Origin: Sorangiineae bacterium MSr11367 | GTDB lineage: Bacteria; Myxococcota_A; Polyangia; Polyangiales; Polyangiaceae | Reading direction: 5' to 3' | NCBI GenBank assembly: GCA_037157805.1 | Contig: CP089983.1 | Location: 13,541,707 to 13,605,706 of the forward strand | DNA length: 64,000 nt | Shown: piece after piece, positions 2,754 through 61,507 of the stretch | Layout: every line of letters starts with the position of its first letter | Numbering within the stretch: position 1 is the stretch's first letter | Notes under the pieces: generated by a model | The model's input: only the letters and a program-made list of their open reading frames with translations | The model's database searches: none | What the model was told of the DNA's origin: nothing | Made by a program: the position numbers and the translations under genes

Positions 2754-3091
2754 TTGGCAGCCAAATCCCAAATCCCGCCCTCGAAATTCCCGCTCCTGCT
2801 CCACGCCAGGAGCGCGCAGCTCATTGCGGTCGTGAAGGCTGCGTGGATCCTTGACCCGAAGTTTCGCGATCAGGCGATGCGGGTGGCAAAGACTATTGCG
2901 CAGAACGCGGCCGGATGGGGAGGCGTCTCGCGGGCGACCGCACCCGTCTTTGCTATCGGGCGGGGTGAAACGGCGGCAGCGGCCGCTGCCATCGAGCTGG
3001 CCATCGTCGTCGTCGCCGACGATCGGCGATCGCGGAACGGTTAGGTGCGCTGCTCGCGTGGCTTTGGCCGGTGAGCGATCCATCGCCGTGA
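2754..3091 (+). pseudogene. decayed four-helix-bundle (S23/IVP-like) ORF
   Basis: Reading from a TTG at 2754, residues in the middle follow the four-helix-bundle pattern: RDQAMRVAKTIAQNAAG corresponds to the family's DQLRRA...S.A.N.AEG, and FAIGRGETAAAAAAIELA to its second half. The frame stops at TAG 3042-3044. Shifting by one base near 3021-3026 restores a typical last helix (AIAERLGALLAWLWPV) up to TGA 3089-3091, so a single base has been lost. The ORF begins inside the left inverted-repeat arm and ends just before the right arm. The intact relative at 61121-61411 has the same placement. Family assignment is by eye; the frameshift is seen directly. Confidence 0.6.
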
Positions 3092-3143
3092 GCGAGGCCA
3101 TCGGGCGTGGAGCAGGAGCAGGAGCGGGAATTTCGAGGGCGGG
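2774..3143. repeat. inverted-repeat element 1 (arms 2774-2807 and 3104-3143)
   Basis: The left arm (34 bases, starting CCCGCCCTCGAAATTCCC) is the exact reverse complement of 3104-3143, except that the right arm carries one extra GGAGCA hexamer. Outside the right arm, a GGAATTTGGTTTGAGGG unit occurs twice (about 3162-3206), and a weak partner (CCAAATCCCAAAT) lies at 2761-2773. The arms enclose the decayed four-helix-bundle ORF. As RNA the whole unit could fold into a long stem with a coding loop of about 300 bases. Confidence 0.8.
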
Positions 3144-3216
3144 TCTTGGAATTTGGGGTTTGGAATTTGGTTTGAGGGGTCTGGAATTTGGAATTTGGTT
3201 TGAGGGGGAGCGGCGC

Positions 3217-14033: not shown

Positions 14034-15476
14034 GTGTACGTCGTTGCGGCGAGCGTGGTCCTCCATGCGAGCTCGGCGCACGCAGACACGGTGCCGGCCA
14101 TCACCAGCAGCGATTACGGGCTTGACCTCTTTCAAGGGCCCGTAACCACGGCCAGTCGGGTCATCGGAATGGGCGGCGCATATACTGCGCTCGCGGAGTG
14201 GTGCGAGGGCGAATACTCCAACGCCGCATCCCCCGCCGTTCGCGCCCCCTACAGCGTAGGAAAACGAGAACTCGACATATGCTTCGGCTTCACCAACCCC
14301 GGCGCCTTCTCGGGAAACGACTTCGAAAATCGAGGCGCGCAGTTCTCCTCGTTGCCAACCCGTTTCACCAATGCCACGACGTTCAATTTGGGCCTTCAAC
14401 TTCAATATGGCCCATTCGGGGGGACCGTCGTTTACGACCAATTGCACGTCGGGCTCGAACAATCGGGGGGTAAAAGCGACATCTCTGCCGTCATCGAGCG
14501 TGTGACCGGCTCGCTCGCGAGTTCCTTCTCGAACGATCAGCTCTTGTTCGGTGTGGGATTCCGCACGGTGGCCTTCAACTTGAACCAGGCCACCGGCGAT
14601 GGGAACGTGGTCGGCGGCAACGAAACGACCCTGGTCTCGCGCACGGGGGCGGGCACCCAGTTCGGCATGATCTGGAAGCCGCGGACCTTGCCCTTCCGTT
14701 TCGGTGCGACCTGGCGCTCGGAGCTCGTGGTGCGCGAAATCCAGGGCATCACCCAGCTCCCCGACGGTTCCCAAGTGGCGGGCGGGCGCATCCTGCCGAG
14801 CCATCTGACCGTGCCTTGGGAGATCGAAATCGGCACCGCGCTCGAGCTCGGGCGGCGGCCGCTCAATCCTCCGCGGGTGGGCGACGCCGTGCTCGAGGAG
14901 CAGGTGCGCGCCCGTTACGACGAGCGCCGGCTCGCGCGGGCCACTGCCTACGCGGCGGAAATCGCCCAGGCCCCGGAAGCGATGCGCGAGCGTGTGCGCC
15001 GCGGTCTGGAGTTGCGCGAGCTTCATCTGCAGAACGAGGAGGAGGCGGCCATCGGGCGCGAGATCGAGGGCTTTCTCCGCGCGGAAAAGGCGCAAGCGGC
15101 ACTCTGGGATCGCCATCAGATGCTGCTTTTGGCGAGCGTGCTCGTGACGGGCCCGGCACCCAACTCGGTGGGTATCGCGGACTTCGTGGCCCAGCGACAT
15201 GCCTCGTCCGGAGAGAACACCGTGCTCTCCGTGCGCCTTGGCTACGAGACGGAGGTCATTCGCAACTGGCTCACCGTCCGCGGTGGCACCTACCTCGAGC
15301 CAACGCGCTTCGTGGACAGCTCACCACGCGCCCATTTCACCTTGGGCACGGACATCCGCCTCTTCCGCTTCAACCCCTTGGGCATCTTCGGCGACGACCC
15401 CTGGCGCCTCCGCCTCGCCGCCGACCTCGCCCCCCGCTATTTCAACTGGGCATTCGCGTTTGGGAAATACCATTAG
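14034..15476 (+). CDS. outer-membrane barrel-type protein with a charged helical insert
   Basis: From a GTG at 14034 the product (480 residues) has a short signal peptide ending SSAHA. Many alternating strands follow (FNLGLQLQYGPFGGTVVYDQ, LLFGVGFRTVAFNLN) and a strand-like C-terminus ending FGKYH, which fits a beta-barrel in the outer membrane. Between about residues 285 and 365 lies a strongly charged helical stretch (VRARYDERRLARATAYAAEI, RRGLELRELHLQNEEEAAIG) that is unusual inside a barrel. No family is recognised. It is divergent from the kinase gene and its TAG stop lies in the left arm of a perfect inverted repeat. Confidence 0.6.
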   Translation: MYVVAASVVLHASSAHADTVPAITSSDYGLDLFQGPVTTASRVIGMGGAYTALAEWCEGEYSNAASPAVRAPYSVGKRELDICFGFTNPGAFSGNDFENRGAQFSSLPTRFTNATTFNLGLQLQYGPFGGTVVYDQLHVGLEQSGGKSDISAVIERVTGSLASSFSNDQLLFGVGFRTVAFNLNQATGDGNVVGGNETTLVSRTGAGTQFGMIWKPRTLPFRFGATWRSELVVREIQGITQLPDGSQVAGGRILPSHLTVPWEIEIGTALELGRRPLNPPRVGDAVLEEQVRARYDERRLARATAYAAEIAQAPEAMRERVRRGLELRELHLQNEEEAAIGREIEGFLRAEKAQAALWDRHQMLLLASVLVTGPAPNSVGIADFVAQRHASSGENTVLSVRLGYETEVIRNWLTVRGGTYLEPTRFVDSSPRAHFTLGTDIRLFRFNPLGIFGDDPWRLRLAADLAPRYFNWAFAFGKYH

Positions 15477-15587
15477 AGAGTTCACAGGAAGACGGGAAGA
15501 CGGGAAGGTTGAGAGGGTTTTCCGTTCGTCACGGTTTCCGACAATCAAAAAAAACTTCCCGTCTTCCCGTCTTCCTGTGAACTCTCT
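15475..15587. repeat. inverted-repeat element 2, empty (arms 15475-15507 and 15555-15587)
   Basis: Two perfectly complementary 33-base arms are separated by a 47-base loop. Each arm holds a tandem GACGGGAA unit plus AGAGAGTTCACAG. The left arm begins inside the stop codon of the upstream gene and the right arm ends three bases before the stop of the convergent oxidoreductase gene. It could stop transcription from both sides, but arms this long and perfect exceed a normal terminator and match the architecture of elements 1 and 3, here without an ORF. Confidence 0.85.
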
Positions 15588-61021: not shown

Positions 61022-61507
61022 CTACGTCAACGTCAGACGTTTGACGTTGACGTCTGACGTTGACGTTGACGGCGACGGCGACGTAGACGACATGACGTAG
61101 TCGTCGTCCTTGACGAAGCCGTGCGCAACGGCGTCGCCCGGGAGGCCGGTGTGCCCAAAGGGCACTCGGCGCTGCTCGATCAACTGCGTCGTGCGGCGCT
61201 GTCCGTACCTCTCAACATCGCCGAAGCCGCGGGGCGAAGCTCGGAACGGGACGGTGCGAGGCACTACGCGATCGCACGGGGTTCCGCGATGGAATGTGCT
61301 GCGGTCATCGATGCACTGCACGTTCTCGGAGCCGTGGAAGCGGAAGAGCATGCTCGCGCCGTGGGGCTGCTTGAGCGGTGTGTCGCGATGCTGACCAAGC
61401 TTTGCCAGTGACGTCAACGACGACGACTACGCTTTGTCGTCAACGTCGCCGTCGCCGTCAACGACCACGTCAACGTAAGACGTCAACGTCAACGTAAGAC
61501 GTCAACG
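61022..61507. repeat. inverted-repeat element 3 with an intact four-helix-bundle ORF
   Basis: Core arms 61065-61115 and 61412-61462 (51 bases each) are complementary with about five mismatches. Both are made mainly of GACGTT/GACGGC-type hexamers. Outside them, more copies of GACGTCAACGT-like units run on either side (61022-61064, 61463-61507), also facing each other. The right arm begins directly after the ORF's stop codon and the ORF begins at the inner edge of the left arm. Arm plus ORF plus arm would fold as a long hairpin in RNA or cruciform in DNA. Confidence 0.85.
61121..61411 (+). CDS. four-helix-bundle protein of the S23/IVP (23S rRNA intervening sequence) type
   Basis: The 96-residue protein carries the family signature LLDQLRRAALSVPLNIAEAA followed by an aromatic/small-residue repeat (HYAIARGSAMECAAVIDAL) and a final helix (LLERCVAMLTKL). 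Proteins of this family are found inside 23S rRNA insertions in other bacteria and related ones help diversity-generating retroelements. Here the gene lies between inverted arms and no rRNA is near. GTG 61121 is the only start in range; the first helix is short compared with the usual family length of about 115-120. Confidence 0.8.
   Translation: MRNGVAREAGVPKGHSALLDQLRRAALSVPLNIAEAAGRSSERDGARHYAIARGSAMECAAVIDALHVLGAVEAEEHARAVGLLERCVAMLTKLCQ

Follow-up and report, generated by a model that had tools for sequence, protein, structure and literature searches.

Dispersed and polymorphic hairpins with a resident S23/IVP-family gene in a Sorangiineae genome and its relatives

Results

The window, a 64,000-nt stretch of DNA analysed here as a whole, contains at positions 61,022–61,507 a hairpin whose family is dispersed and polymorphic and includes a conserved resident gene. 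The gene encodes an S23/IVP-family protein, and the copy in the window probably represents a mobile hairpin element in decay. Below, L002 denotes the window element and G000 the genome carrying the window, a single 13.6-Mb contig with the window at its end. The features of the element are as follows.

61030..61115, no strand: left arm, made of GACGNN hexamers (repeat search, TRF; score against shuffles)
61070..61120, plus strand: open frame upstream of the ORF, in the place of the absent helix 1, without ATG, GTG or TTG (frame 61070–61408; sequence and alignments)
61121..61411, plus strand: S23/IVP-family ORF of 96 aa with a GTG start, without helix 1 (PF05635, TIGR02436; three-helix model)
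61412..61502, no strand: right arm (repeat search, TRF)

The sequence-only reading had described an S23/IVP-type ORF that is flanked by inverted arms of GACGNN hexamers and located outside rRNA, and these points were borne out. Ungapped arms were found at 61055–61115 and 61412–61472 (61 nt, 89% complementary) in an inverted-repeat search of the window; with gaps allowed, they extended to 61030–61115 and 61412–61502 (92 columns, 84%). The complementarity score between upstream and downstream sequence was 106, while none of 60 dinucleotide shuffles scored above 28, and TRF detected period-6 arrays in both arms. Rfam yielded no rRNA match at L002 and a single sub-threshold match, to a microRNA model, while Pfam named no domain in the two ORFs taken as the neighbours of the element. 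The ORF exceeded the curated cut-offs of both PF05635 (E = 3.5e-18, 66.2 bits, cut-off 33.8), its sole Pfam match over the cut-off, and TIGR02436 (E = 6.4e-19, 68.2 bits, cut-off 24), so the HMM search places it in the S23/IVP family.

The description of the ORF as an intact four-helix bundle had to be abandoned. In alignments, relatives start about 25 residues earlier, and the extra part corresponds to one helix. The frame of the window ORF is open from 61070 to 61408, yet ATG, GTG and TTG are all absent before 61121, and the first part of this open frame, with the first codons of helix 1, is covered by the left arm. The predicted structure has three helices (pLDDT 89.7, residues 1–8 below 50), as opposed to four in the predicted structure of the Sorangium relative L163 (pLDDT 95.4). 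Since helix 1 is absent and the model has three helices, the window copy is not intact.

Other hairpins in the window

Two further elements of the window had been read as sharing the same plan. This held for element 1, which combines arms of 93% complementarity with a divergent S23-like ORF; the ORF had no Pfam match but was picked up at E = 1.1e-15 when 780 open stretches of at least 40 aa were searched with a profile built from five relatives. It did not hold for the likely element 2, a hairpin that has a loop of 41 nt and lacks an ORF; we assumed that this hairpin was the one meant, as the earlier reading gave no coordinates.

2761..2802, no strand: left arm of element 1 (42 nt, 93%)
2817..3014, plus strand: S23-like ORF stretch of element 1, divergent and C-terminally short (profile E = 1.1e-15, frame residues 22–87; open frame 2754–3041)
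3115..3156, no strand: right arm of element 1 (42 nt, 93%)
15475..15587, no strand: hairpin with an 8-base unit and no ORF, probably element 2 (repeat search, TRF)

ORF-less hairpins with the 8-base unit GGGAAGAC were observed at 15475–15587 of the window and in L143 (1309–1400), L145 (10292–10437) and L146 (19507–19656). Three of fourteen 20-kb samples of G000 held one such hairpin each, in addition to the one in the window, so G000 is likely to contain very many members of the family. S23 copies between GGGAAGAC arms were not seen in the window and the fourteen samples.

S23 genes between inverted arms

PF05635 matches numbered 12 in G000 and 19 in G002, a sister genome of the same genus, with none in the sister genome G001, and were present in 115 of 183 genomes of the order. 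We scored the arms of S23 loci as the best alignment between the 400 nt upstream and the reverse complement of the 400 nt downstream, and compared each score with those of 60 shuffles; loci too near a contig end (8, 1 and 10 in the three samples) were left unscored. Inverted arms flank S23 genes far beyond chance: scores above all 60 shuffles were obtained for 26/50, 16/41 and 52/70 loci in three samples that share at least nine records, the third drawn from public genome records, whereas none of 640 control positions in three genomes reached a score of 36. About half of the loci in the first two samples had no significant arms. Loci above the shuffles among the public records came from Sorangium cellulosum So ce26 and So ceGT47, Pelagicoccus mobilis, and metagenome bins labelled Acidobacteria, Planctomycetota, Desulfovibrionales and Parachlamydiales; the Minicystis rosea locus was not above its shuffles. 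Hexamer arms were also seen on two of three S23 contigs (L205, L218, L239) of a metagenome bin labelled Klebsiella pneumoniae, a label that may be wrong.

The arm repeat unit differs among most S23 loci. Its period was six in 57 of 81 distinct arms, seven in 11 and another value in three, with no significant period in the remaining 10; this set leaves out nine second-fetch loci and one arm shorter than 24 nt. The strand running into the hairpin was A-poor and T-rich (p = 1.5e-5, same set). Its AT skew was negative in 57, positive in 19 and zero in six of 82 distinct arms, a set leaving out the nine second fetches.

An architecture that we call type B, present in G000 and G002, consists of S23 genes with a conserved upstream hairpin and outer hexamer arrays. 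Judged from their substitutions, related S23 genes are under purifying selection: dN/dS among 17 type-B copies had a median of 0.11 and was below 0.5 in all 136 pairs. Three pairs of such type-B genes in G000 are arranged head to head about 0.9 kb apart (L003/L008, L005/L009 and L010/L011); each gene lies behind a long conserved hairpin, and outer hexamer arrays flank the pairs on one side or both.

Arms dispersed without the gene

The window element is not unique to its locus. Elsewhere in G000, seven places match its arms with E values no higher than 1.5e-10, and two more do so weakly. At six of the seven stronger matches the arms form an inverted pair; the loop is 10–23 nt long in five of these, whereas in the sixth it spans 124 nt and contains another palindrome. 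At L061–L063 and L067–L069, an inverted pair was either absent or unrelated.

We tallied the places occupied by five further arm families. Matches up to 700 nt apart were counted as one place and the resident copy was included; the tallies were drawn from 124 listed rows, excluding rows that match across two families, and are lower bounds. Arms of the CGTGAT family, whose S23-bearing copy is L013, occupy at least 19 places in G002, 10 of them seen as inverted pairs, and at least seven in G000. The G001 matches to these arms, at one place, were discarded, as they look by eye like a His-rich coding repeat. L163 arms were found at at least five places in So ce26, and L164 arms at at least 13 places in So ceGT47 versus one among the matches listed in So ce26; the L163 and L164 proteins are 83% identical, while their arm repeat units differ. 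Similarly, L124 arms occupy at least 12 places in G180 versus two listed in G181. L115 arms do not fit this own-copy pattern: they occupy at least 14 places in G181, the home of their S23 copy, but also at least 13 in G180.

As arms recur in the form of ORF-less hairpins in the same genome, the family comprises a gene-bearing copy and its satellites. One hairpin, L074, retains the first and last residues of the S23 ORF (by eye) and is, on this sequence evidence, a deletion derivative; no S23 ORF was seen by eye in the loop of L284. In L290 and L299 (G000) and at six CGTGAT places in G002, unique ends are outermost and hexamers central, opposite to the order in the S23-bearing L013.

With so many hairpins devoid of an ORF, S23 could be a passenger: hairpins moved by an unrelated enzyme would have trapped it in some of their loops, as mere cargo or as a gene useful to the host. 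The GGGAAGAC family, common in G000 with no S23 copy between its arms seen, fits such a reading, and the S23 fold is not known to have catalytic activity. However, S23 is placed between such arms at many loci in several phyla, and no other sequence was so placed at the 640 control positions. Purifying selection on S23 also speaks against a passenger, as does the greater richness of the CGTGAT, L164 and L124 arms (though not of the L115 arms) where their own S23 copy resides. We therefore consider the passenger reading doubtful.

Empty and filled sites in sister genomes

Twelve G000 sites were compared with G001 and G002. In G001, both flanks were found at eight sites, and none of these eight held a hairpin of the same family: the window, element 1, L001, L057 and L059 sites were closed up, p2 and p3 held about 1 kb of other sequence, and the L055 site carried a hairpin of another family (L267). 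A state could be assigned in G002 at 11 of the 12 sites, all but L055. The element 1, L070 and p1 sites were empty (p1 by eye), whereas L001, L006, L057 and p2 were filled by the same kind of element, p2 with one S23 gene instead of two. An array without an ORF was present at p3, and remnants of arms at the window and L056 sites; these remnants allow loss as well as gain. The site orthologous to L059, which holds a GACG hairpin in G000, holds a CGTGAT hairpin in G002 (L265) and nothing in G001 (L268). The different families at the L059 and L055 sites may reflect hot spots or the overwriting of one family by another. No target duplication was seen at the empty sites, which are too diverged for junctions to be placed.

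Taken together, the dispersal of the arms in G000 and the element-free sites in sister species support the earlier suggestion of a mobile inverted-repeat unit. A reading without mobility, by which tandem arrays grow in situ beside S23 and become inverted via slippage and recombination, could draw on the outer arm parts of L216, homogenised separately in each arm, and on the ORF-less array at p3 and the remnants at the window and L056 sites in G002. Such growth is hard to reconcile with the spread of a single arm family over many unlinked places of a genome and with the traceless G002 sites of element 1, L070 and p1, and we regard it as very improbable.

Arm evolution and RNA pairing

For 29 pairs of elements of our own choosing, the left and right arms were compared jointly between the two members. 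Among the 21 gene-bearing pairs, concerted changes outnumbered one-sided ones in eight, equalled them in two and were fewer in 11. The eight include L163/L164 (30 concerted, 13 one-sided), L115/L124 (16 and 1), the window copy and L216 (21 and 7), and L025/L026, both from G002 (13 and 8); in the remaining four pairs the margin was one or two. L224/L185 exemplifies the shortfall, with one concerted and 12 one-sided changes. In the other eight pairs, which combine the window copy and gene-less copies from G000 with one another, 0–2 concerted changes stand against 9–14 one-sided ones; this contrast is suggestive only, given the lower divergence of these copies and the uncertainty of aligning repeats.

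Arm mismatches on the sense strand comprised 139 G-U and 154 A-C (p = 0.41) over 91 loci, nine of them second fetches. Because mismatches show no preference for G-U, upkeep of the arms by sense-strand RNA pairing is not favoured, which weakens the proposal of an RNA hairpin kept for cutting by RNase III. The corresponding reading is an element of the intervening-sequence (IVS) type, whose hairpin acts at the transcript level, where RNase III would cleave it and the need for RNA pairing would maintain its arms. Its appeal lies in anatomy, which equals that of the Coxiella IVS, described in the available part of the report as having a 28-bp terminal stem and an S23p ORF in the loop (PMC4990558), and in the RNA folding of the window element (z = -10.8). 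Apart from the balance of G-U and A-C mismatches, ORF-less satellites at many places argue against it. In 16 further S23 loci, Rfam gave neither rRNA nor anything else at the gathering score; the Rfam scan that covered L002 gave 15 sub-threshold matches in 10 loci, 13 of them to microRNA models. We judge the IVS-type reading unlikely.

Protein fold

The predicted L163 model matched 2GSC (TM 0.91) and 2RLD in Foldseek searches. It also resembled Avd, which partners the reverse transcriptase of diversity-generating retroelements (DGR), and chains of the DGR ribonucleoprotein (4DWL and 8UB7 chains), at TM 0.70–0.80 and Foldseek E values of 0.1–0.9. This likeness concerns the four-helix fold; unlike Avd, S23 in G000 has no reverse-transcriptase match within 0.7 Mb. 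Six residues (Q39, R42, N50, E53, E76 and D82 in L163 numbering) were invariant in 20 relatives. 2GSC, a relative of solved structure, is reported as a homopentamer in the part of the literature source available (PMC4990558). It is plausible that the S23 protein binds its own stem.

Candidate enzymes

No catalytic enzyme was found, and neither Y1 transposases nor reverse transcriptases track the elements. Y1 counts in G000, G001 and G002 (3, 0 and 9) run parallel to those of S23 (12, 0 and 19). A Y1 transposase (RAYT) was nevertheless rejected as the mover: tandem-hexamer arms were present at 0/12 Y1 loci of the genus, of which L249 and L252 have other kinds of inverted repeats, and a Y1 match, seen in 86 of 183 genomes, is lacking in the S23-bearing Sorangium genomes G162, G164 and G165. 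Reverse-transcriptase matches (four in G000, three each in G001 and G002) were dismissed likewise, as they occur in the S23-free G001. In G000, 0/4 lay within 0.7 Mb of any of the 12 PF05635 matches; the reverse-transcriptase loci were scanned for three type-B motifs.

The Y1 transposase gene of L252 (G002) is flanked by a CCGGC palindrome (1059–1108 and 1845–1894; reverse complement of the locus end), and a similar palindrome lies at 805–912 of L058 (G000), in the loop of a GACG hairpin. This is apparently an ordinary REPIN-RAYT system beside the S23 hairpins.

Discussion

We see about an even chance that these elements form a family of mobile (foldback) hairpins on which the S23 protein acts, with the window unit as a decaying copy. 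The complete form would consist of a long inverted repeat, with arms made up mostly of tandem 6–7-mers, and an S23/IVP four-helix-bundle gene in its loop. The protein would bind hairpins of its own family once these are folded, in the form of either single-stranded DNA or RNA, and would promote in trans their copying into new intergenic gaps, with cutting and joining presumably left to host or other enzymes. Snap-back copying, in which one arm occasionally serves as the template for the other, might also take place, and would preserve the complementarity of the arms while the repeat unit changes.

Miniature inverted-repeat elements (MITEs) and foldback elements likewise include deletion derivatives that retain their ends, and long inverted arms of short tandem repeats; of the features of MITEs, terminal inverted repeats, short non-coding copies and insertion polymorphism are all present here, while the parent differs in having no transposase. 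The REPIN-RAYT system also combines a gene-bearing copy with many dispersed hairpins that carry its ends, according to the part of the report available (PMC3116915). In contrast to that system, the elements described here have a helix-bundle gene instead of an HUH/Y1 transposase, and their ends are long arrays of 6–7-mers rather than short tagged palindromes. CGTC-tagged palindromic repeats are similarly dispersed without a known dedicated transposase, but are short REPs, and the accessible part of their description does not mention an S23 gene (PMC3733652).

A close anatomical counterpart is the 23S IVS of Coxiella burnetii, about 0.4–0.5 kb long, whose complementary ends form a stem with an S23-family ORF in its loop, as given in the part of the source available (PMC4990558). 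Unlike it, the elements here lie outside rRNA, have tandem-hexamer arms that vary by locus and are accompanied by dispersed ORF-less satellites. The same source, as far as available, describes the origin of rRNA IVSs as unclear and the function of S23/IVP proteins as unknown and notes that a mobile origin of IVSs has already been proposed (PMC4990558). In a literature search that reached few subscription papers, we found no description of S23 genes that are carried by hairpins elsewhere than in rRNA.

More broadly, and as a tentative possibility, S23/IVP proteins may be dedicated trans-acting factors of widespread, so far unrecognised mobile hairpins that have no transposase of their own and whose arms are copied from each other while folded. 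The 23S IVSs would then be copies that landed in rRNA and were tolerated through RNase III.

The pattern of a gene with satellites gives the S23 protein a testable substrate, namely its own arms, and suggests how rRNA intervening sequences could have originated. The pattern is also relevant to palindromic repeat families for which no transposase is known, such as those described in the available part of an earlier report (PMC3733652).
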